A stretch of 64,000 nt of DNA from Multifurca ochricompacta. Taxonomy: Eukaryota > Basidiomycota > Agaricomycetes > Russulales > Russulaceae. This document shows positions 25,262 to 41,685 of the stretch, one piece after another. The notes below the pieces were generated by a model. It was not told the DNA's origin. It saw only the letters and a list, made by a program, of their open reading frames with translations, and did no database searches. The number at the start of each line of letters is the position of its first letter. Position 1 is the stretch's first letter. The position numbers and the translations under genes are program-made. Location of the stretch: positions 496,001 to 560,000 of the forward strand of contig WTXG01000010.1 of assembly GCA_022496185.1 (NCBI GenBank). The letters run 5' to 3'.

Positions 25262-27105
25262 ATGATGCAGAGTCACATTGGAACTTCCTCTTCAATGCCT
25301 CCCAGAAGATCAGAGTGCCTTGCCAATGAGGAGACACCTCTTCTCCGGGGTGAAAATGTGCAGCGAAAGCCAACGCCTTTGCCAGTGACCCAGATCTTGG
25401 TTCTCCTTTTGTTGCAACTCGCTGAACCGATCACGTCTCTTTCAATCAACCCCTACATAAATCAGGTTTGTTTTTTTCATCGCATTTCGTCAAGCGAAAA
25501 TGACGGTAACGTCTGTTTCAGCTTGTGAGCGAGCTTCCCGTCATCGGTGGTGATGAGCGGAAGGTGGGATACTACGCGGGAATATTAGTATGTCCTACCC
25601 GTTTCTTATTGAATGATGAATGGCACATGTTAAACATGACCACACACAGGTATCCCTCTATTTTGCAGCGGAGGCGGTCACGATACTCCAATGGAGCCGT
25701 CTTTCGGACTACATTGGGCGCAAACCTGTACTCCTATGTGGTCTCTTTGGTACGATTATTTCAAGCATCCTGTTCGGCCTTTCCCGTTCGTTCCCGGCGC
25801 TTGTTATGAGGTATGTTCGGCGTCTATCCTGGGGAGTTATGGCTCTCTTAACTCGATCATTATAGCCGATGCTTGCATGGCATGTTGAATGGCAACATTG
25901 GCGTGATGAAGTCCATGATGGCCGAGCTCACAGATGAAACTAATGTTGCGAGAGGTTTTTCATTGATACCAGTAGTCTGGGCTGTCGGCGGCACCATTGG
26001 GTTTGTGACATTTGCTTGCTGACCTCTTTGACAACTTAGTTGATGAATTGGGCTTCAGACCGTTTATCGGCGGTGTTCTGTCACGGCCACAGGATCGTTG
26101 GCCAGGCCTCTTCTCGCACCCATTCTGGGCTGAATACCCATACTTCCTACCGTGTCTCGGAACCGCCTTTTATGCTTTCATGTCGTTTGTCCTGGCTGCG
26201 GTTTTCTTGAAGGAGGTCAGTCATTTGGTCTATCAGTCGAGAGCCGTGCTTACCTTACACGTCACTTAGACAGTAGAATGTAGCCCATTAGCGATGCACA
26301 AAACACTGGACATTAATTCCGATATACCTCGGGCAGGAGCCGGTGAAATTTTGGATGAATCAGTTAAGGATCTGGAAAAGCCGCTACCGCTACGCTCTCT
26401 GCTTACAAGACCGGTCGTGATATCGATTGCCAATTATGGAATGATCGGGCTACTCGAGGTGACGGCTGGGGCCCTCATCCCGCTTGTCTGGTCGACGTCG
26501 GCAGAGTTCGGTGGACTGGGCATGAGTCCGGCATCTATCGGTTTGTGGATGGCCGGATATGGCTTCTTGAATGGCATCTTTCAATTTGTTGCCTTCCCGC
26601 ATGTCGTCGGGCGTTTCGGTCCGAGGGGCGTCTTTATCTCCAGCATCCTTGTGTTCATCCCAATCTATATCTTGTTTCCCTTCGAGAACTTGGCGCTACG
26701 TCATGCAAGCGGCGATGCAAACGTGATAGCGCCTCTGCTCATCGCCTTGCAACTTTGTTTTGTATCCTTCTCTGATATGGGATTTAGTGAGTATTTTGGC
26801 AATCTTATTCGTGCGCTGCCGTGGACGATTTACCGATGAAACCACCAGGCTCGGTATTCATGTATATAACTTCTGCAACGCCTAACAAGCGGTGTCTCGG
26901 CGCTACGAATGGCCTCGCGCAGACGATGGTCTCAATTCAACGAACAGTGGGACCGGCTGCGGCGGCATCGTTATTTGCCTTCTCTCTGAACAATAATGTC
27001 CTGAACGGAAACTTTACGTATGTTGTTCTGCTTGTTGTAGTCGGTGGAGTCTTGTGTGTCGCGGTACAGCTTCCAAAAAAAACGTGGAGCCGTTGTGAAA
27101 AGTAG
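25262..27105 (+). CDS. MFS transporter (drug/proton antiporter type)
   Basis: Seven exons read cleanly: 25262-25465, 25522-25587, 25650-25810, 25866-26000, 26059-26215, 26270-26786, 26849-27105, giving 498 residues. Helix 1 (QILVLLLLQLAEPITSLSIN) is followed by the cytoplasmic motif A, WSRLSDYIGRKPVLL. Next come SRCLHGMLNGNIGV and IPVVWAVGGTIGPFIGG in helices 4-5. A charged central loop (ESVKDLEKPLPLRSLL) precedes the second half, which includes YITSATPNKRCLGATNGLAQ near the end. This layout fits fungal MFS proteins related to YCR023C and plant ZIF1-like carriers. The substrate cannot be told from sequence. The start is at tandem ATGs; the second (25265) is equally possible. Confidence 0.9.
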
Positions 27106-28230
27106 ATTACAAAAGAAAAAAAGTCAAGTCATATACCATGTACGTTTGACTTTTGTACGAATTTTCAGTCGAGCTGTGGAGTGCAGTGCCGAGGACACGT
27201 ACTTATTAGCAGCAATGTACTTTCCTTCCTTTAACGCCATGGCTGTGGTTTCATCTTTTTCTTGTGCAGTTTGCCGTCTGATTCGATTCGAGAACGAGTG
27301 GGATGAAACTAGTCCCCTCAACCCTTACCTTACGCCCTTACACCCTACCTTACATCATTGACAGCAGATACACAATCAATGTACAGCCATATTCACCTCC
27401 CCGTGCGGTGCCAGCGCACCAATGGAAAAAATCACTTACGGAAAGTACGTTTTCTAGCGCGCACAGGCGGTTTACGTGAAAGGGTCATCGGTATCGTGTT
27501 GTGAATGAGTGACGACTAGAAGGGAGTAGAGTAGATCTGAGAACAGGAAATTGAGCCGTATGGCGTCACATTTCCCAGGGTTTCTCAAGGCCAAGATTCC
27601 AGGTTCCATCCCCTTCACCATACTCTCCAGTCCAGCCAGTCCATTATGACAGAAGTGTACGTACGATAAGATCAATAGTTCCGATTAGGAAGCGGCTATG
27701 ATGCGGGTTGGATCTGGCACAGCTTCTGTAGTCACCTCACCTGTCACCCCTCCTACTTAGACCCCGTCACAGCAGCTGCGCAACTTGCCTCGCGGCGATA
27801 AATTAGGGTCATCATGATCATGGTCATGATCATGCTACAAGTTGGACGACGAGAAGCGCTGGTAAGAAGAGGAGTCGATGGACGGGGCTGGAAGGAGTAG
27901 AGGTATGAACGCGACCTTCTGATGACGAGATTTACTACCAGATTCTGTTCGACTTTTCTATTTTATCAGGCTGAGGCCCAGGGGCGATGCTGTGTACCTG
28001 AAGGGTGGATACTGGATCCAATGATTGCCTATGAACCTTCCGGTCACTTAGGCTCCCATTCACAAATTCAATGCGTTGTATCGCAATCATTCCTCGTGTC
28101 CCTTCACGCAGCGCGGCTTCGAAAAGCTACTAAGCGTAAATGGAAACAGTACGCCGTGTGGCGAACAGCCCTTTCATATCTTTTAAAACCACATTCTGCC
28201 CCCTTCGAGTATCCTCAACCCTAGTCCCCA
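27106..28230. other. Intergenic region between MFS and the giant GTPase-VWA gene
   Basis: No supported gene. GATCATGATCATGGTCATGATCATG near 27810-27834 is a palindromic stretch. A 100-codon frame at 27922-28224 has no recognised similarity and could be leader sequence of the next gene. Confidence 0.45.
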
Positions 28231-31200
28231 ATGGATATCAACGCATTATTCGTCCCTCCTGACCTCTTCCCAACGCGTTCCGAGTATTCCACACCCGTGG
28301 ACGGTCATTTTTTTGGTGAGTGTGCAGGGTTGCTCGTTTCATGCGTTTCCCTAACCCGTTCGGCCTCAGGCACAGATGAACAAGCCCAGGCCCAGGCTAC
28401 GATTACGAACACACAAGCACATGGCAGTAGTGAGTAGCGAGTGTCCTATGGCTCGCTGACTTTACGCTGTGAAAATTAAATTACCGTGAAACAAGATTCC
28501 CATTATCTAGGTGCTCCTGTCACTGGCACGGGCAATTATTCGGGCCTGTCAGATGCACGTCAAGGACACGAAGGTAATATCCGGCTCCGACTGAGCTTGT
28601 TAATCCAAATGGGAAGTTGAATGTTCCTTGGTAGTCCCAGAGCAATTCAGTCAGCTTCCCAGAGAATATGTGACCGTGACCTCTGATCAACACAACCATG
28701 GGCTCGCTTCAACCACCTTCGTAGATCTGGCTGAAAAAGTTGAAGGCATGTATCGGCTCCTAGACCTCATCAGTGAATCAGGAAGCAATGGTTACGGTAA
28801 GGGTCATTTTCGGGACGCGACACTAACCGGGCTAATCCAGCACATTACACTGCAGTCGATAAGGTTATCATTGCCCAAAGCTCTCTCCAGCGTTTTATAA
28901 ATACCATATCTCCCGGAGCATACGCATCTATCACCAAAGTCGATTTCAAAACTTTGGATCGACTTATGATCAAACCAATCGGTGTGTACGGATCCAAGAC
29001 AGAGATCGTACGCCTCCTCAGATCAATCGGTGCCGTCGACGAGGACGCGTGAGTGACCTTCGTATCTTCAATCTCCTGTTTTATGAACTCAGCTCTCAGG
29101 GCTCGTTTACTGCTCGCGCAAACTGATGCCGGCGGTTCCCGGTCGTGCATTTCCTCTGGCCTGTACATTGTGAAAGCAAATAATGCAGAACTCGCAGACG
29201 ATCGTCACTACGTTATATACTGGCCTGAAGATACAACTTGGAATGATTCAGCAGTTTCCTCCGTTCGCCGCAATCGAGTCACGTTCATGCGGTGAGCGAA
29301 CAACTTCCAATTCTCTATTTTCCGTCACACTCTGATGAATACGGATCAGATACCTTACGAAGATGTGCGACCAAGTCGTTGCCCTCTTATCCCCTGATCA
29401 CTCACATCCATAGTCTGGAACGATGAGGACAGCGATGCCGAATCTGTTGACATGGACAATGGAGACTCTGATAGGCTATTCACATTTGAGGTCGCAAAGA
29501 CAAACGAACAAGAAGAGAGCGCGGTTTCGCGCCCCGGTTTTCAGGTAATCATCAAGCTCATCTCACACCGTTCGTTTCTGATCTCGTGGAAGATGAATTC
29601 CCCCTACATCTCGCGTTACGAGGCTCCTGCAGACTTTCCGGTTGATCCCGCAATTCTTACGACTCGCCTTCTACCTGGAGAAACCACGCAAGGGTTCTTT
29701 ACGACAACCTATGTTCCTCATCAAATCTATTCCGAACCTCTCGAACAACACTCGTTCAGCCGGATGTCTCTTAAACATTTAGTGTAGGTGCATTGGTAGT
29801 TTCGTGAGACTCCCAGTTCACACTCTCCACAGGAAGAACAACTGCTTGGTCCTATCGGAGACCCTTGATGAAAACACCATGCAGACCTTGGTCGATATCG
29901 CAATCTCAGAACTCTATCCGAAGCCATGCAGCGAGTGGCATGCCGTGAAACAGGATATCTATGATATTTTAAGTCGAGAATCGATGAAGAGGCAAAATAC
30001 AACTCTTGAAGACATTGCCAACAACGAGACTACGTTGAAACGTGTTCTTCGTGAGGCCCTTGTCGAGGAGGTGGCTAACCTTTTCCCGTATGTCTTGCTT
30101 GGGGTACTCCGGGTCATAGGATATTAAGGCTCCTTTTTTCACATAGGTCATTGGAACGTGACCGCCTCTCTCCTGGTTCGCGCGTCCGCAATGACTCTAA
30201 CACGAGCCAGGAAGCTGGAGGTAAGAAATCCTCTCGTAGTTGTTCCACAGCTCACCTTTGTTCCAGATACCATGCAGCTCTCCGATCTTGAGTTGCTTTA
30301 CCCTGAGTTCAGGGTCATCTATCAAAAGCGAGTCCAGGAAGCCCGTTTCGACATTGTATTAAGGCGTGACCCGTACTTCGAATCTCGGAAGCTTCGTCTG
30401 ATCTCCGTGAGACACCTTCTGACGAAACATCGACACCTGCCCTACGAAACACGTGTTGAAATCAAGCAGGCGCTGCTCAAAGGCGATTTTCATCGTGCAC
30501 AGCGGATGCTCCCCAAGGCAGATGAGAAGAAGAGATCAAACGTAGTCGCCTGGGCAGTCGGGTCTTTCCTATACTCTAGTGGTCCTGAGTCTCTAAAAGC
30601 GGAAATGAGGACTCTCGCAGCCAGTATCCCCGACTCGCAATTTTTGATCGAACTGAAAAATGTAGAAGACAAGGACCTGCGACCCTGGGTCCAGGAAGTT
30701 GAGGATCTTGTGCACGATCAGTTCATGTCTTTGATCGACGCAATCACGAAGACGGTGACTCGTGCAGTGTTGGCGATGCAGCAGGAGCATTGCAGAAATA
30801 CCATACATCGAGAAATCGAGAGCGAGAGAAGGAAGCTGCTGAGCGACGCGCTCGTGGAGTTCATTCGAGTCATCAACAAACAGTCGGCGGCCAGCCGGCA
30901 AGATTCGTGAGTTCAGCGATGTTGTCAAGATTTACTTAGAATTAACCGTATTTAGTGTGGTGTACCTTGATCGTATCGTCGCGACCACGCGGCCAACGGG
31001 GAAAGGGCGACGACAACAGTAAGTTTGCTGCTCCAGTCAAGATTGTAGACTGATCACTCTTAGACTGTACTATGAGCAAATTAACGTGCAATGGAACGGT
31101 AATTATCCTTCTCGCCAAACATTCCCGTCTTACCATGATCAGGGTGCGTCTGCCAGCTGTTGTGCGTAAAAGCTATTTCCTAGCTAATATATTATCAGAG

Positions 31201-34200
31201 TACTGGATCACCGGTCGCCGAGACGCTCTCCAAGGACCTCGACTTCAGTTTTGGATTCACCTCATGGATTTGACTAGCGATGACAAGCAAACCATCCAGC
31301 TAGATCCTAAGCACATACCAAACCCTACGGTGAACGGCCGGCTCTCATCTGCGTTCTATCTGCCTATTGGCGTAGATATCGCGTACGAGTCTGACTTCCT
31401 CATATTCCTCACACCCCACCTTACGATGCTTCCCCAGCTTTTATCAGCTTCTCGAGAACGAGAAGCTCCTCCTTGTTCTGACCGACCGGGACAAAATTGC
31501 CATTTATCTTGAGCGGCCACCAGCAATGAATATGGCCATACAGCGGGATAAGCCGATCAAAAGTCTGAACCGTGAGAAGCTAGGAGAAGATGTTCTTTTT
31601 GCGTTTGACGAAGCGAAGAGAGCCTTAGCTGTGTGTGCTCCGATGAAGGTATCCTTATGCTGATGGCTGAGAAGTACCAGTCCTGACCTGCTGTCTGCGA
31701 CCAGTTACAACTTCATGTGTTCCTTTTTGATGAGACTTTCAAGACGCTCCAGGGACAAGGAAGCTCCATTAATCTTGCCCCCTGGTATAGCCAACCAGGG
31801 ATCTCCATTCTACAAGCCGCCTTCGTCACTGGGAACGAGGAAGTTGTTTTGGTGGATTCAAGTGCTCAAGCCCGTATTTTTTCCTTCGTCACACTGCAAT
31901 TCAGGTGAGATTTTTGTTCACGTTGTAAGACCTCTCCTTAGAGCACGTACTCACGGGTGTTTGGAAGACCGGCTTCTATACAGCTTCCGTCTCTTCCTAC
32001 TGCCGTATTCTCGTCTCCGGATGGGTCCTGCCTCCTGGCTCTACATAAAGAAGACTCGCAGACATCGCTGATTGCTTATCATTGGGAGACGTTTGGGTCG
32101 ACTCGGGGAATTGCGCTAGATGTCCCAGATTTTCCTCTTGAAGGCGCGGTCTTGACGTCCATGGTCAACCGAGGGCGCATGTTTCTCCTCGGTCTAGATA
32201 TCGATGCGGGGTCCGTTCGGTCCGTCGCCGTCGATATCACAAAGAAGGTTACAGAGTTCATGTTCAAGGAGAAGGGCGGCAGAAGCGCCTCAAATAATAG
32301 CGAGCGTCACACCCTTCACAACAGTTTACTCGACTGCCACGCTGAAGTCTGGACTCGCTACCCAGTTCTTCCTGCTGTGAAACGCCGCACTGTGACGTCT
32401 CTGAGCGAGCGTCAGCAGAAGAGTCTCACATTCATTGCTGAAAATTTTACACGACCTTTCGATTCTTACTTCTCTGACCTCATCCAGACTTTCCAAAGGA
32501 CGGCGAGAAAGCCCACCGGCGACGAATTGCGCCAAATCAAAGTCTCTGCGATAGAATTCAGATCATTCCAGGAAAGGGTGATCCAAGACCGAGACTGGCG
32601 TGCGTCCCGCTACCGTGTAGGAGAGTGGCTTGTCGACCTCCTGTGCCTCATTCCCATCCATATCGCTGTTTGCCGCGAGAATCGATTTGTTCCCTTGGCG
32701 AATGGCGTTATCTCCTCGGAATTGGAAAGGTCACTTCTCGGCGCCGAAGTCAACAAGATAGTGGATAAGCTATCATTCGGTTGGTATGAGTCCATATTCC
32801 AGTCATATTTGGCAACCAAGGTATAGTACTTGAGTGACTACTCATTACATGAGTGGACAGATGCTGAAACTGTCGCGCATAGCCCGTAAAAGTTGTATCG
32901 TCGATGGGACAGCAATCCGTGGGCAAGAGCTTCTCGTTGAATCACCTCCTTGACACTTCATTCGCTGGGAGCGCCATGCGGACGACAGGTATAGTCGCTC
33001 CTCACTTTGTAATTAAGATCTAGGACTCAGCTGAGATACACAGAGGGAGTGTGGATGTCTGTGACACCAACAGACGAGGCGCTTATCGTGGCACTCGACT
33101 TTGAAGGTGGGCGTGATTATTTTCTACCTTTTCTACGGCGAAACCATTGACAAAATGGTAGGCGTTGATAGCGTCGAACGGTCACTTCAAGAGGATACAC
33201 TTCTTGTGCTGTTTAACACTGCGATATCAAATCTTGTACGTTGATTGCGTCTTGACGGTAACCCCCTTGTGACGTGGATTAGGTCCTGTTCCGCAACAAC
33301 TTTGCTTTCAGCCGAGACATTAGCGGATTATTCCAGTCATTCCAGTCTAGTGCGTCGGTCTTGGATCCAGCGGCAAATCCATCTCTTTTTCAATCAACGC
33401 TTGTGATCATCATCAAGGTGAGCTACTCGTGATAATTGCCGTCACACCATGTCGTGATGACCCCGTTATCAGGATGTTGTAGAACCCGACAAGATGGAAA
33501 TAACCCGCGAGTAAGGATTTGTTTTTAAAAGAATAAGATTACCCAGTGAGCTTAGAGGTTTGTAGGTTTTCTCTCAAATTTCAGAAGATCGTGCAACAAG
33601 AACAGGATGCGAACTTCATCTCACGGCTTCACGGTGGGAAGCTTGACATCATACCGTGGCCAGTGATCGAGTCGAAAGAATTCTACAAATTGTTCTCCAC
33701 GCTCAAGAAGCGATTGGATATGCAGAAGATCTCGCACCCGACCGCGGGTGAATTTCTCCATACAATCAAGACACTTATGGCGAAGCTCAAGGCGAGTTCT
33801 TATACTGTGCCATTAATATGATGATTTGACGTGTCCTGGCAGGCCAATGATTGGGGTGCACTCTCTCGTTCGTAGCTTCGTCTCTTCTTCACTTCACTAT
33901 TCTCATTCTTCTCGACAGAGACCATGACGGAACATCGTTCTAGAACACTCTCCACCCTCCTCCCAATTGCATTAGCTACAGGGTATTCCGAGGTTGAGCC
34001 TGATCTTGAACCGCTCAAGGTTCTGCTTCTCTTTAATCCGAACGAAGGGCGTGTCTGACAAAACACTCAGAATATTGACACCGACCTCATTGTGGAATGC
34101 GGAGACACTCCAGCACGCTTTTCTATATCCGAGCGTGATCAACTGTCTTCAGCAGACATTGAGATACACCTTGCTGCTCTACGGGATTCATGGAACCCAA

Positions 34201-37200
34201 ATACTGAGCGTCAATCCATTCCGGATTCTGAGTGGATGCAAAGCCTCGCGTCATATATCAATGATTTGATCGACCTGCGCGTCAACCACGTCCGACTATG
34301 GTTGGATTCCAACCTGGAGAGATTCCAAGCCGGTAATGCCACGATACAGGATCTACGCAGAAGATTCGACAACATGATCATCGAGATGAGGACGAATGTC
34401 CAATTATGTAGTGCTCAATGCGCATCGTGCCACCTCCACTGCGTTCGCGGTCGCTTACACGAAGGTGAACATAGTTGCCAAACTACTCACCGGTGTGTAC
34501 ACAAGTGTGCGTTCTGTGAGAACGGTGAGAAGCTTTGCGGTACACCGTGAGTTCTCTGATTTCTGTTTTTATGTGTTTCATTACAATGAACTGATGTGAT
34601 CAATAGCGCTGGACATCCTGGTGATCACGTGTACGTATAGCAAACCGCCTCCCGTCTGACAGTGCGATTTTCTTACCATCGTCCAGTTGCGTCGTCAATG
34701 CCCATTTATGTGGTGAACCTTGCAAGCTGTACGGAAGGCGGGGTTGCTTATATGATTGCACGAAAGTAAGTCCATTTGAATAGTTCAATCGACACGGCTC
34801 CTACATCTATTCAGGTTGCGGGACACGCGGAAGATGAACACATGTGCCCTGCGCCGGTACATATGTGCGGCGAGGTAGGGTGCGCTCTAATTGTGGAGGT
34901 GTGTCTTGCTTATGATATAAATACCACCAGCCCTGCGCTCTCAAAGGGATGAGGCTTCCAGGCGGGAGGACATATTCTTGCCCAGAGACCTGTAGTATTC
35001 CCAGGCATGTCCATTTCTCAATAGGTTTCCATTCCAACCAACTGAACCCCATACAGCGATCAAGACCACGAGACTCATTCCTGTGATACGAGGCTGTGCC
35101 CAGCGACCTGCGACCTCTGCAAACGGCTTTGCGTTCAACCCCACCTTCATGGGCTCGCTCCAGACATGCATCATTTGTGCGGGTTAGTGTGTGCCCTATT
35201 CCAATCTGACGTTGAAACTGAAAATTTGGGCAAACAGAGAAGCGCATGCGTGTTCGGCGCTATGTTCAGCGCCAGGAATATGTCAAATTGATACTGCACC
35301 CCAATCTATCGAGGCCACCTTTACCGGTAAACATGAGACATTCCAATACACCAAGGTATATTGCGGCGTTTATGGGTAGCTGATTGCTGGTTGATCATGC
35401 CTAATTTTTAACAGTACTCACAAGGTTTGTTCATTTGTTCGAAAGAAAATACAAGGAGTCGTGCTGACGTAAGGCCAGTTGCGAAACGGTTGCAATGTGT
35501 CAAGACTATTGAACCGGGACAAATGGCGCATACGGGTGCCCATATTCACAGCAAAGAAGAGCAGCCATTCCACTTCTGTGAGAACCGGTGTGTCATTTCA
35601 CAGTACATTCCATAGCAAATGATTGAGATCATAACGATACAGTTGCGAGAACTGTGGCTATTTCTGTACCTTGCCACTTGGTGAGAAGCCGAACCATATA
35701 TAACTACATCTATTTAATCTTTGAATGGTCACTTCCAGGTCATACTCAACAGGAGCACGAAACCAGTCACGGCTCCATGACACAGACTCGCTGGGCTGTT
35801 GATGGTCCCGATGACACCGGCCTTGAGCTGGATGGCCGCAGGTTCTCCGCTAATGATGAAGGAGCCCCCATGATGTGCAACCTAGTGTGTTCCTCGATGG
35901 GGAGACACGCACACATCGATTACTGCCGCGCTGAAGAGAATACACCCTGCGACGCGGCTGAGGTGCAGCATCTTAATTCGAGGATGGTCCCCAATCCGGA
36001 CAAACCCAAGGACGCCATCACTCACAATCTCTACTGGCGCAGGACAGGTATGATGAATTTCCCCTTCTTGGCCTACCCTAGACTAAACCTCATCTACAGG
36101 TTTCAAAGGTTATGGGAATTCATGTCTTCTGTTGCAAGCCGTACTGAAATTGGCAATCAGACCCATACACTCGTGACGAGCAAACGAACTTTACGAAATG
36201 GTGCGTTGTAAATCCCAGGCGTTAATTAGCCACTAAAACCCTACTGTAGTGACGCAATGTGCTCGGGTATGGTGCAGTGTCAATTGATGGTTACGCTTTT
36301 TTAACTTAGACCACCAAAATACAGGCCCTGAACACTCGGCGACGGCAGGTGTACCAGGACAGCCCTCTTACTGCACATTACCCATCTTCCATCCACCTAG
36401 GAACCTGAACGATCCCGTGAATGGTCCTGGTTATATATCCAATGATGGGCATGTGTTCGAGTGCAGGAATCCCGTTGTGCTGCAGCAAGCGTTCCACGTG
36501 TAAGCCTAACTCCGTCTCACTACCGAAGGCGTTAACGCCTCGACCTCTGCAGGATCTTCGTTATTGACAGGTAAAATTTCACGTCAGTTAAAGTGAATCG
36601 ACCCCCATATCTCACGTTCGCGTTTTAGATCCGGCTCGATGTCCCACAGGGACCGCCGTCCTCTGCCCGACGCCCCCGCCACAGAGCGGATCCGACGATC
36701 CGCCGATAACAGGCTTGGTGCTGTCTGTTCGGCTTTATACAGCTTCTGGACCGCTCGACACGCCGCCGTTACGGCGGGTCAACAGGCAGCCGGTGCACGA
36801 CGCGACGCATACAGCGTTGTCCTCTTCAACGATTCGATCGCAAACGCTGTGATTAACGACTTCACGAGCACTCCCCAACAACTTCTAGAATCCGTGCTTG
36901 CTATGCGAGCCAGTGGAGGAACAGATTTCTCTGAGGCTCTTAGAGCTGCTCATAATGCCATGGTGCAGAACTGGAGCACGGAAAGGTTCGTTCTCTTACA
37001 CAGCTTCTTCTACTCCACATTTTTAAAAACGGTTTCTCTTAAACCAGATCACCAATCATGATTTTCCTTTCTGATGGTCAATGCCCAGTATTAGACGAGG
37101 CCGTTCAAGATGTTTGTCGTTCCGCTGTTCAACGAGGGTAGGTTTGCTGTTGTTTGCTTTTTCGGTGCAAAGAGAAGCGGATCACTCAACTGCTTGGGCA

Positions 37201-37496
37201 GGAAACCGCTCTCTTTCCATACTGTTTCCTTTGGCCCAGATGCTGCGACTGGTACCCTCCGTAGGATGGCGCAGCTCGCGCTTGACATACAAAACAATGC
37301 TCCTCATGATCCTTTGCTTCCCGCAGCAGCCAGCATACCTTCGTCATTCACTACCGTCCTTGACACGGTAAGCACCTACGTCTCCCGTACAAATTAGAAT
37401 CGGGTAACACTAATATCTCCCCAGGTACGGCTCGCGGAGACATTCCTAGGGCTTGCGGAATCGTTAAGGAAGCCACGTGGTTCATTGATGCGCTGA
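28231..37496 (+). CDS. Giant multidomain protein: large GTPase (dynamin/GBP-like), Cys/His-rich region, C-terminal VWA domain
   Basis: More than 25 short exons in a consistent order make a protein of roughly 2,500 residues, starting MDINALFVPPDLFP. The N-terminal third (28630-31000) is mainly helical and acidic. The middle (31300-32270) looks beta-rich, possibly propeller-like. A GTPase follows: VVSSMGQQSVGKSFSLNHLL (G1, about 32895-32955), MRTT-EGVWMSVTP (G2 region), ALDFEG (G3, split by an intron at 33106) and LVIIIKDV (G4-like, about 33405). Then comes a Cys/His array (34410-36000) with repeated HxCxxxC and CxxxC units such as CSAQCASCHLHC and HLCGEPCKLYG. Last is a VWA domain with MIDAS residues: VIDRSGSMS (split by an intron near 36570-36630), GGTDFSEAL and FLSDGQC. 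The architecture recalls VLIG-type large GTPases fused to a metal-binding adhesion/scaffold domain. Its role is unknown. Individual exon edges are approximate. Confidence 0.78.
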
Positions 37497-37689
37497 AAGT
37501 CGACTTTCTGTACGTGCGGATTATACGTCGCCATCACATGTGGTTGCCGTTTTCGTGATCTGTTGTAGTGCTTTCCCGGTTGTGTTGTAGTTGTAGTTTC
37601 CCTGTTAAAACCACTCAGTCGTCGACAGTGAGAACGAGAGAGAACACCGGGCCGAAGTCCCGGGAAAGTTTTGACTTGAAAACTGAACG

Positions 37690-38677
37690 ATGTCGTCTGA
37701 GTTGGACTACTCTCCCTCCGTTAGAGGACCGTCTGATCTCCGTGCCCAGGCTCACTCGCCCAAGCCACCACCAAAGGATAGCCAAGACCATATTTCTCCA
37801 TGGATTCCAATTTCTATGGTTAGTGCACTTTTCCGTTTTCCGTCGTGGAGAATTAACAAGTGGGTATCAGCTTGTGGTCACGACAACTGCCCTTGCCGTC
37901 CCCCTTGTTCTGCTCCGTCGACAGCGTGCGGCCACAGTCGCATCTATTTTCAGTAGAAGCCCGTCTTCTTCGATACCGAGTGGTGCACCGCCCGTGAGAC
38001 GCATCCCATTGCGCAGCGTTCCCTCTGTTGTACCACCGCCTCGTGTTGCACCAGTACAGACGCCGATGTCACCAGTGGGGGCACCGTCGTTGGAAGCAGG
38101 AAGCACTTTTGGAATGTCATTTAAGGACGCATCGAGCGTGTCTAAAGAGGACGGTTTCAATGGCGCTTTGGACTCTCTCAAAGCATTCGGCATCGCTACT
38201 GCTCTCGTCATGGCTGGTGGTGCTGCCAGCGTATGGGGCATTAAAACATACCTCGGTGTAAAGGATGTGCGCAATCTTTAAACACCTACGCATCTAGCTT
38301 TAGATCTTATTATTCGTTTTCACGTTCGCCAGACCCAGGAGTTCGCATCCGCCATGCGCCTCACCCTCCTCACCAAGTGGCCACTCCTTACTTCACGCAT
38401 CCATCGCACGTCCGACTCGGCTCCTCTCCCTACCCAACCGGTCTCGTTACCAGCGAGCGTTCCTACAACATCGGAATCGGATGTACGGCCCCCGACGGCT
38501 GTTGTGCCAGATGCGGAGGGGTGGAACTGGCCCGCCTCTCAAGCGCGCCTCGCAGCAGCGTATGAGCGTGGCGGTGTCGCACAGTTCGCTGAGGCGGCTG
38601 TCGGAGAGCTGGAGGCTGAGGTTGAGGTTGAACGGCGCAGACGCGGGCTTGCAAACTCTCCAGAAGGCCGAAGTTGA
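37690..38677 (+). CDS. TMEM242-like mitochondrial membrane protein
   Basis: Three exons (37690-37818, 37871-38266, 38333-38677) give 289 residues. A first helix is LVVTTTALAVPLVLL. The conserved core FGMSFKDASSVSKEDGFNGAL leads into helix GIATALVMAGGAASVWGI, then YLGVKD joined across the last intron to TQEFASAMR. This matches the TMEM242/C6orf35 family, in which animal members assist ATP synthase and complex I assembly in the mitochondrial inner membrane. The fungal protein has longer disordered tails: a Pro/Ser-rich stretch between the helices and a Glu-rich C terminus (VGELEAEVEVERRRR). It lies 194 bp downstream of the giant GTPase gene on the same strand. Confidence 0.75.
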
Positions 38678-39441
38678 CTAACCCCATGTACAAGTCTGGG
38701 TTGCTGAAGCGACTCGACCCTCGCCTCTTGTCGGTACTATCGTACTGTAAGTTAGATCGTTATGTTATGTACAGCATTTAGGTCTGGAACACTACACCAC
38801 AGCCGAGACTAATCAAGCCCCGGAAGAGTATTATTATATACTGATGGTAGACCCAAGCTACGTGACCTAAGCCAAATGAATATACAGCATTCCCTAGGCT
38901 ACCGCGACTGAGCCCTGAGACCAGCGACATTTGCCAATGAGGCGCGGTTCTGGACTTTTGGTCCGCCTGAATTTTGATTTCAGTCAAGGGTAGAAACTAT
39001 AAACCCCAGACGTCTCTTTGGGATGCGATGAGGCACCCGTACAGAAACGATCCAACTAAGGTCTGTGGGCAAGGACGGATAATGTAACCACCGCTTGCAT
39101 TCCACGTGAATATAGCCATCAGCTTATTGGAGGCTGAGACCCCCGAAGTGAGGACCCCCGGGTAGAACTATGATCTGTTTCATACTTGCAAGAAAACAAT
39201 GGCTTTGTTGTTATTCGCGTAACAAGACCTGATACTTGTGGGCCGTTGTGAGCAATAAATACACATGGACCTATATTCGTCAACAGGCACCCACTTGGAA
39301 CAATAAGCCCGCGTAACCGAAGACAACAAAGTACTAGCGCGGTTGCCCTCTTGTTGCGAGAATGCATACTTTATATCTAACACCTTGCACATCCTCTGAT
39401 GGTGCAAAAAATACATCCTGATACCCACACAAGATCGAGTC
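38678..39441. other. Intergenic region before the DUF6535 gene
   Basis: AT-balanced sequence with no recognised open frame. It should contain the DUF6535 gene promoter and the TMEM242-like terminator region. Confidence 0.4.
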
Positions 39442-41685
39442 ATGTCCGCTCCCGAGTCAAAACCCCAGGCCATAGCAAATCCCTTTCGTGAGTCCCGAAT
39501 CATGGGTCAGTAATACATCTCTTCTCGCACTATACATCTCCCACCACTGGCAATCTAACTTCCCTCCGCTGTAGCTCTACAAGCTAGTGCTGCGGCCAAG
39601 GAACAACCTGGATCCTCCCACTCTTCCAATATATTGGGACCTGCACCAGCGGATGGCGAAGCCCCATTTACGGACTCATCGAGTCCCCTATTCTCTTTAT
39701 ACTTATCGCACGCGGAGAAGCACGATCAAGAACAGAGCGATAGATGGAAAGCAGGCGCGGATGGGATACTCGTCTTCGTACGCAGGCCTCCACTTGTTGC
39801 CTTTGCCGGGTTGCAATCCACACTGACCGACGCGAATACACCCCGGTAGACCGGATTGTTTTCAGCTGCGCTCGCCACATTAGTAGTCGACAGCTACAAA
39901 TCATTACTGCCAGACTCAGGGTCAAACACCGTCGCCCTCCTCACCCAAATATCTCAGCAGCTTAATGGATCATCACAAGTTGTTATATCATCGTCTCCGA
40001 CCGCCCCGCAGTCCACCTTCCAACCGACCACTTCCGCTGTTTTGGTAAATGTGCTGTGGTTTCTGAGCCTGGTCATTACTCTCTTTTGCGCTCTGCTGGC
40101 AACCCTCCAGCAGCATTGGGCTCGTCGATACCTCCGTCTCACCCAACCCCAATGTGCTGTTAATAAGCGTGCTCGCATTCGCTCCTACTTTGCCGAGGGA
40201 GCTGCCCGCTTTCATATAGACTGGGCGGTGGAAGCCATCCCATCTCTTCTCCATATCTCTGTATTCCTTTTCTTGGCAGGCCTCGTCATCTCCTTATGGC
40301 AAATTCATCTCGTCGTCGCATCTGCCGTACTCGCATCAACCTCAGTCTGCGTGTCTGTATACGTTACCATCACAGTGATTCCAGTATTCTGTCACGATAG
40401 TCCCTACCATTCCCCGTTGTCGGGGTTTGTTTGGTGTATCCATCGAATGATTTCCAAAGCGGTCCTAAATGGCATCCAATCCACCGCAATCTTTCTTCAT
40501 AAATATTCAAGGCCCTTCGCAGGGAGCTATTTCCGGTCTCTCACGACCAAGATCTCATCTTACAAAGAACGTCTTTCCGAAGACATGACCAGTGCCGCCC
40601 AGAAAGCGGCCCGGGACGAAGACTGGCACATCGACGCCCGCGCGTTAAGTTGGACACTTGACAAGTTGGATGAAGAACGCGAGTTTGAACAATTCGTAGC
40701 AGGGATTCCCGCGTTTATGCGTTCTCTCGAGGTGCAAGAACCCGCGTTGGTGCTCAAGGCCTCGCGACTGAGCCGCACTGATACCAGTCTCTATCGCGAA
40801 ATCATGACCCTACTCATCCGCGCCTCGAAGCCTGGATTGCTACGGGATTCAAAGTCCTTACCCGAGTCCGTACGGCAACAGCGAATCACGACCTGCTTAG
40901 AGGCTCTCTACTTGTTTCCGAACGCCATTGAAGAGATCCTGCGGCGCGTATCAGGCGTCGACAACATCAACAACAAGAAAGTCAGAGCTGGCTTCGCGTC
41001 GATACTCGAATCCATGGAGTCTTGGCTCCTCGCAGAACGATTGTCAGTCCAGAACAAGCGGAACAGCGAGGCCGTGATGATCGGAGCGCGATGTATGGCC
41101 ACCGCAATAGCCGCCCGACTACGCGACACGCGAGAACTCCCAATCCTTATGCAGGCTTTCCCAGTCCTCATGCGACAGTTGAATATCAAGGAGCCGCACC
41201 TCTTGAATTCTTTTCTACAGCCCTTCGATAGCCTCCTCCTCAAGAACCTGAATAATTTCCTCGAAGAAACGGTGCTCAAGTTCATTCATAAGGACGTCCA
41301 GATTTTCATTTGGACGATACGCTTGTCCAATGGGTTCCAGCTTCAAAATGCTAACCAAGAGCTACGCGACCACTTTCACAAACTTTTCGTCAAGTTGGAA
41401 CACCTCGCAGATTACTCACAACCGGAGATGACGGTCCGGGGGAACGCGAGGAAGGTGCTTTTCGAGCTCGCCTGTCTGCGTGGCCACCCCCAGCAGTCAC
41501 GGACACTCCCTGCGATGACAGTTACAGTTTCTACCACCATGGAAAGTACTCGGGCATCGTCTCTCCCCTATAATTTTTCTTCGCCGAGGGATTTACCGCC
41601 GTCTCAATTTTATCCCCGAACGCCATACTCAGCTACCTTCCCCTTAATGCCTATACACTCTCCACATGGTGATTCGGGACCGTAA
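39442..41685 (+). CDS. DUF6535 domain-containing membrane protein
   Basis: Exons 39442-39487, 39575-39777 and 39850-41685 give 694 residues. The signature is near the N terminus: DRWKAGADGILVF, joined across intron 2 to TGLFSAALATLVVDSYKSL. It is followed by LVNVLWFLSLVITLFCALLATLQQHWARRYL and a helix pair (LLHISVFLFLAGLVISLW, VLASTSVCVSVYVTITVIPVF). The DUF6535 region spans about residues 70-260 with four membrane helices. The remaining 430 residues are soluble, helical and repeat-like, ending in a Ser/Pro-rich tail. This family is abundant in Agaricomycetes and its function is unknown. No frameshift is seen. Confidence 0.9.

Follow-up and report, generated by a model that had tools for sequence, protein, structure and literature searches.

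An apparently old, many-copy fungal family of giant GTPases with Cys/His arms and a VWA domain, and its possible role in recognition of intracellular non-self

Does the stretch of plus strand between positions 28231 and 37496 of a 64,000-nucleotide window from Multifurca ochricompacta (assembly GCA_022496185.1, contig WTXG01000010.1, here C2, forward strand) encode one giant protein or several, and what could such a protein be doing in a fungal cell? The original prediction, made from the letters of this window, had proposed a single gene of about 2,500 residues that joins a GBP-type large GTPase, a Cys/His metal-binding-like array and a VWA domain with a full metal ion-dependent adhesion site (MIDAS). 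The present analysis supports the single gene, and the same fused order was found in single proteins of distant fungi. What is new here is the fusion of a predicted propeller, Cys/His arms and a VWA head to a giant GTPase of the GBP/VLIG/RHD3 group, in a many-copy fungal family. The product of the gene could be a giant, cytosolic member of the GBP/RHD3/VLIG superfamily of GTPases which works as a GTP-switched, self-assembling recognition scaffold against intracellular non-self. This functional reading is tentative and is held at less than even confidence, a grading that covers all its steps.

Pieces of the GTPase, the Cys/His region and the VWA domain follow each other in that order across the three forward frames, separated by short introns, as one intron-rich gene. 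The joined gene draft was searched against 5.8 billion proteins, and 602 of 7214 candidates matched at E <= 0.001. The best 120 of these 602 comprise 107 single proteins 2,000-2,512 residues long and 13 shorter ones. Identical domain order was found within single proteins of Agaricomycetes, Glomeromycotina, Endogone and Basidiobolus, and in an alignment of 20 chosen proteins (8 from basidiomycetes and 12 from others) the order from GTPase to VWA was kept, as read from seven printed rows. That distant fungi keep this order within one protein is strong evidence against two or three separate genes, and that possibility was rejected. The fusion of GTPase, Cys/His array and VWA domain is old. The original prediction had regarded the fused architecture as the most novel coding feature in the window. 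It was right about the fusion, but the architecture is special neither to the window nor to Agaricomycetes, and three things described below had escaped it: the N-terminal domain, the predicted propeller and the number of copies.

The database already holds a model of this gene, B0F90DRAFT_1935607 (P0001, 1994 residues), which matches the window letter for letter in 37 exons between 29452 and 37397. Its 36 introns are 45-64 bases long, 34 with GT-AG and 2 with GC-AG ends. Alignment to P0002, P0014, P0038, P0042 and P0103 revealed that P0001 lacks upstream exons, among them those that code for a conserved N-terminal domain beginning at about 28700, and by the relatives the true gene end is the TGA at 37494-37496, after ..AETFLGLAESLRKPRGSLMR, P0001 stopping at 37397 on a different reading. 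Judged by these alignments, the database model is incomplete, with its N-terminal exons absent and its end wrong. The gene would extend from about 28231 to 37496 and code for about 2,300 residues, summed from the joined draft and the exon mapping, rather than the 2,500 first proposed. For the ATG at 28231 and the short leader exons that precede the N-terminal domain, the basis is frame and splice-site reading only. It should be noted that the P0001 reading contains tiny exons at 35415-35424 (10 bases), 36100-36108 (9) and 36250-36266 (17).

A gene-model artefact, in which neighbours were wrongly joined, or a decaying pseudogene that has lost its function would be compatible with the truncated database model and with a single frame interruption that the window copy carries at about 29403. 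However, the frame is open there on C49, the contig of the other haplotype (99.5% identity over 9,909 bases), which carries its own single-base length differences elsewhere in the near-identical stretch. Because of these two facts the simplest reading is that the interruption is probably an assembly error, and it would in turn explain why the P0001 model starts downstream. All 13 tested G-motif and MIDAS positions are intact in P0001, and with the order shared among distant fungi this makes an artefact or pseudogene highly improbable. A second frame break, suspected at 31199-31270 on first reading, was rejected, as the relatives show the other frame to be correct. The two haplotypes differ unevenly, with 4 substitutions over 28000-34500, 27 over 34708-36280 and 8 more up to 37513; the uneven divergence over 28000-37513 could result from local gene conversion or a collapsed assembly.

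The large GTPase domain was located at 32883..33867 by Pfam profiles, motifs and alignment. It contains the G1 motif GQQSVGKS at 32907-32930, an intron-split G2 motif RTTEGVWM, the G3 motif DFEG (LDFEG) at about 33097-33108 in the unspliced frame and a G4-like IIIKDV, also split by an intron. P0001 matched the Pfam profile RHD3 with E 7e-9 (35.9 bits, below the cut-off of 42.4), GBP with E 1.4e-5 (24.8 bits, above the cut-off of 21.1) and URGCP_GTPase with E 6.5e-4 (19 bits, below the cut-off of 55). At E 0.01, URGCP_GTPase and RHD3 were each found in 16 of 18 relatives and GBP in 11. A profile search of solved structures gave weak matches, GBP2 being first (E 0.0018) and SEY1 third (E 0.016), along with GBP1 and GBP5. 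Of 169 proteins with 1,900 residues or more, 133 are complete at all tested G positions, gaps, including those from gene-model faults, being counted as missing. The fourth motif, (R/K)D, is present in P0001; among the covered sequences of the same set its first position is K or R in 154 of 162 and its second is D in 162 of 164. The G1-G3 motifs together with a family profile place the protein in the GBP/VLIG/RHD3 superfamily, a putative GTPase assignment that rests on profile matches and conserved motifs.

Within this superfamily, a membrane-remodelling GTPase like Sey1, atlastin or RHD3, acting in endoplasmic reticulum or vesicle fusion, is another reading. Of the Pfam GTPase profiles, RHD3 matched P0001, P0002 and P0038 best, and SEY1 is among the matches to solved structures, but the RHD3 score stays under the Pfam cut-off in all three proteins. 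In addition, a hydropathy scan of six proteins detected no hydrophobic pair after the GTPase, where none of the four best windows of each protein exceeded 1.4; one hydrophobic stretch (1.4-1.8) lies directly before the GTPase. A role in membrane remodelling is distinctly unlikely on this evidence. No CaaX end was seen in four proteins (ending in RGSLLR, FSSKQT, ALLKKS and PSLMRN), the ends of P0001 and P0002 being uncounted as probable model errors. Since neither a membrane hairpin after the GTPase nor a CaaX end was seen, the protein is probably cytosolic. The segment that follows the GTPase, at 33919..34406, is a helical region by alignment and structure model. A search of the Multifurca genome with PF02263 gave no match, and as none was obtained in 14 control genomes either, it is uninformative.

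Two Cys/His regions come next. The array at 34407..35287 consists of repeated C-x3-C...H...H-x-C...H-x-C-x3-C units, and the second conserved Cys/His domain, aligned at 35288..36499, reads ..TFQYTKYSQVAKRL..CENCGYFCTLPLGH..HGSMTQTRW..GAPMMCNLVC..GRHAHIDYC... Conservation reaches at least 90% in 42 Cys and 31 His columns across 20 relatives, and only two Cys and one His of the conserved columns lie outside the array, the second Cys domain or the VWA border. The array of P0001 has four copies of H-x-C-x(2-6)-[HC]-x-C-x3-C, the mean in 500 shuffles of 230 residues being 0.03 and the maximum 1; four copies were present in each of eight proteins examined (shuffle means 0.02-0.05, maxima 1-2), and the longer unit with the leading C-x3-C occurs one to three times per protein. 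In its second Cys/His domain P0002 is 38-48% identical to eight non-basidiomycete relatives. The conserved columns and the repeats beyond shuffles bear out the array that was originally proposed, and conservation of this kind makes zinc binding by the array probable.

At the C-terminal end, a VWA domain occupies 36553..37496 by Pfam, alignment and model, with the MIDAS motifs DRSGSM, GGTDF and LSDG and a conserved end before the stop TGA. VWA_2 matched P0001 with E 6e-12 and all 18 relatives. All five MIDAS positions (D-x-S-x-S, T, D) are present in P0001, confirming the VWA domain with a full MIDAS, and they are complete in 113 of the 169 proteins of at least 1,900 residues (gaps counted as missing); a VWA fold is supported by structure prediction. 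Such a domain brings up a protein-handling adaptor, in which the VWA domain would bind a ubiquitin- or proteasome-related client like Rpn10, the propeller and Cys arms would dock and the GTPase would drive a conformational change. The structural match to VWA domains that suggests it is not specific, as CLCA1, ANTXR2 and integrin domains follow within about 1.3 Z, and no ubiquitin-type domain was found among the Pfam matches of P0001, P0002, P0038, four pieces and 18 relatives; the adaptor is doubtful. Some relatives (P0002, P0007, P0014) carry an insertion in the VWA domain, and in P0002 and P0007 it repeats '..VYSALYSFW..', by internal duplication or as a gene-model effect. Two alignment rows are odd or gapped, P0315 (Endogone) at the P-loop and P0292 at the last MIDAS position, and may have gene-model faults. 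The irregular stretch that replaces the usual P-loop continuation in P0315 is probably a splicing error in the model.

The N-terminal half adds further domains. The exons at 28231..29407 contain the chosen start codon, a poorly conserved leader, placed by reading only, and from about 28700, by alignment to relatives, the conserved N-terminal domain, which runs from ..AEKVEGMYRLLDLISESGSNGYG.. to ..TKMCDQVVALLSPDHSH and in which P0002 is 32-36% identical to eight non-basidiomycete proteins. The end of this domain and the predicted first beta-propeller strands were mapped from the P0002 model to 29410..29783; the propeller structural matches have aligned ranges that begin at about residue 211 of the model. 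After a helical region at 29833..30906 (model helices 298-603), a predicted interruption of the propeller, the main part of the predicted propeller follows at 30956..32300. The fold in the predicted structure is of the WD40/NHL propeller type, and the propeller is predicted to be split by a variable helical region. In that region P0002 shares 18-22% identity with five basidiomycetes and 8-15% with eight other fungi, and the region evolves faster than all other domains measured. Between the propeller and the GTPase lies a conserved region (32300..32880, relatives' alignment and hydropathy) with one hydrophobic stretch, GEWLVDLLCLIPIHIAVC. Pfam searches of the Cys-region, N-terminal-domain and propeller pieces and of P0185 gave two matches only, both unrelated with E 0.12. 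In a second structural comparison all rows listed were for propellers or VWA domains, and it hardly covered the N-terminal domain, the helical region and the Cys domains.

How old the family is can be judged from its distribution. A query with the GTPase only gave 804 matches, the best 120 of which add Tilletiopsis and several Glomeromycotina. A third query, made of four concatenated Glomeromycotina fragments, gave 609 matches of 7987 candidates scored, with relatives among the best 120 in Rhizophagus, Funneliformis, Gigaspora, Diversispora, Geosiphon, Ambispora, Acaulospora, Entrophospora, Endogone, Jimgerdemannia and Basidiobolus. Many of the non-basidiomycete relatives are 2,000-2,500 residues long; that of Jimgerdemannia has 1,627. 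No Ascomycota and no non-fungal organism occurred among the named rows in the best 120 of the 602, 804 and 609 matches. Bacterial or viral relatives were also sought with two short patterns per scan and rejected, since none of the 47 viral-contig and 30 prokaryotic-contig pattern matches was a relative by tblastn. In a tree of 79 chosen proteins, with the root set on Basidiobolus by hand, the 55 from basidiomycetes group together with support 1.0. The distribution is most simply read as vertical inheritance from an ancestor early in fungal evolution, absences elsewhere being due to loss or to missing data.

In M. ochricompacta itself the propeller exon was found at 25 places in the genome and the GTPase exons at 82. 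Several of these are haplotype pairs (C2/C237 98.8% and 99.2%, C108/C423 99.7%, C2/C201 97.9%, C2/C49 99.5%), and after collapsing haplotype copies about 11 loci remain, six on C2 (near 126, 140, 165, 209, 402 and 528 kb) and one each on C582, C21, C501, C324 and C108. Two of these, on C501 and C324, could be alleles of each other, being 95.7% identical, and a further partial match lies on C575. On C21 the copies near 13 kb (L032) and 100 kb (L033) are inverted and 99.5% identical over 9.7 kb, which is either a recent duplication or a folded assembly. Old paralogues in the tree of 79 are three Gyrodon-Hydnomerulius pairs, and recent ones occur in Suillus and Lactifluus subvellereus. Several copies are present in many filamentous fungi, and this would also suit a developmental or stress-response family of mycelial fungi that was expanded by duplication and has no defence role. 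Many copies and a fast-changing region are features seen more typically in recognition genes; they point that way, though not decisively, and a purely developmental or stress-response family is possible if somewhat doubtful. Open frames adjoin the gene at 26270-26839 (rich in hydrophobic stretches), 37859-38677 and 39180-39506; Pfam gave no match at E 0.1 for four neighbouring single frames, which probably need splicing.

In the recognition scaffold that we favour, the G domains would pair once GTP is bound, as they do in GBPs; a rigid arm would be formed by the zinc array together with the second Cys domain; and the propeller and the metal-dependent VWA domain, the likely binding heads, would hold partners or targets. 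The gene copies and the fast-changing helical region could then be recognising something variable, most likely intracellular non-self such as a virus, an endobacterium or foreign cytoplasm. A role in defence or non-self recognition is plausible by analogy with GBP and GVIN proteins: human GVIN1, the closest kind of protein whose action is known, forms a coat around a cytosolic bacterium in cell-autonomous immunity (PMC11974893). The membrane-remodelling or non-self response scaffold of the original prediction is likewise an analogy. A broader and more speculative proposal, which we consider rather unlikely, is that fungi from Basidiobolus and Glomeromycotina to mushrooms have their own GVIN-like giant-GTPase arm of cell-autonomous immunity, with GTP-driven coats or scaffolds that carry a VWA/propeller reading head, are diversified by duplication and a fast-changing insertion of helices, and wrap or mark intracellular bacteria, viruses and foreign cytoplasm.

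Several observations weigh against the scaffold. Expansion and fast change of the family also fit relaxed constraint or developmental paralogues. Nor are the motifs invariant: of the basidiomycete proteins covered at each site, 3 of 121 have another residue for the P-loop Lys and 12 of 111 for the first MIDAS Asp, counts in which gene-model faults are not separated from real changes. The AlphaFold model of the C-terminal half has a mean pLDDT of 55, with values below 50 across the GTPase (51 near relatives in the alignment), and the Cys regions are likewise without a confident fold. At this confidence the model speaks neither for nor against a GTPase fold. Because confidence is low there, it is expected that Foldseek and the second structural comparison of the C-terminal model gave no GTPase row among the rows printed. 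Human GVIN1 is described in the available part of its source with two large GTPase domains, and no VWA domain, propeller or Cys array is named in that list (PMC11974893).

The proteins already carry automatic names in databases, VWFA domain-containing and VLIG-type G domain-containing, so that the word undescribed in the original prediction holds only in part: no paper on the family stood among those listed in searches of open-licence PubMed Central literature, judged by title and start of abstract, subscription papers being mostly outside this scope. VWA domains are known in prokaryotic conflict systems, in a source whose available part does not mention VLIG or GBP (PMC7159879). Regulated cell death and immunity in fungi have recently been reviewed in terms of NLR-like, HET and gasdermin genes, and the main text of that review, as far as available, is without GBP, GTPase or dynamin (PMC12881547). 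If the scaffold reading is true, these deeply conserved multi-copy giant GTPases would be a fungal candidate counterpart of the animal interferon-induced GTPase defence, and their reading head of VWA domain, propeller and Cys/His arms would go beyond the domain list available for GVIN1. Even if it plays no part in defence, this is a large fungal family whose architecture is defined and testable and for which no published function was found.

How then does the family compare with known systems? The spacing C-x4-H-x-C-x3-C of the array resembles the core of NF-X1-type zinc fingers, but the fungal array gives no match to a Pfam zinc-finger family, NF-X1 included, at E up to 10 (four pieces, HMMER filters applying). 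With Rpn10, CLCA1 and the integrin I domain the fungal protein shares a predicted VWA fold and the MIDAS, the fungal VWA domain being fused to a giant GTPase. Likeness to RHD3, Sey1 and atlastin lies in the RHD3 profile (E 7e-9 to 2e-7 in three proteins) and in SEY1 among the structural matches, whereas the fungal family is without a detected hairpin after the GTPase and its RHD3 score is below the curated cut-off. The GBP family gave the best match among solved structures, GBP2, and shares the T-x-G-[VI]-W-M and D-x-E-G motifs and a GBP profile above cut-off in P0001, P0002 and P0038. The fungal protein is about four times larger (the GBP2 chain has 591 residues) and has extra domains; some GBPs have a C-terminal CaaX motif, which the four fungal proteins lack, and the fourth motif is RD in GBPs and KD in the fungal family. 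Interferon control is not known to exist in fungi. The VLIG, GVIN and URGCP proteins of animals are alike in being giant proteins with a related large G domain, and some of the fungal relatives are named VLIG-type in UniProt. GVIN1, in the part of its description available, has two large GTPase domains, whereas P0001, P0002 and P0038 each have one Pfam GTPase stretch, and the fungal family joins its one GTPase to a predicted split propeller, a Cys/His array and a VWA domain.
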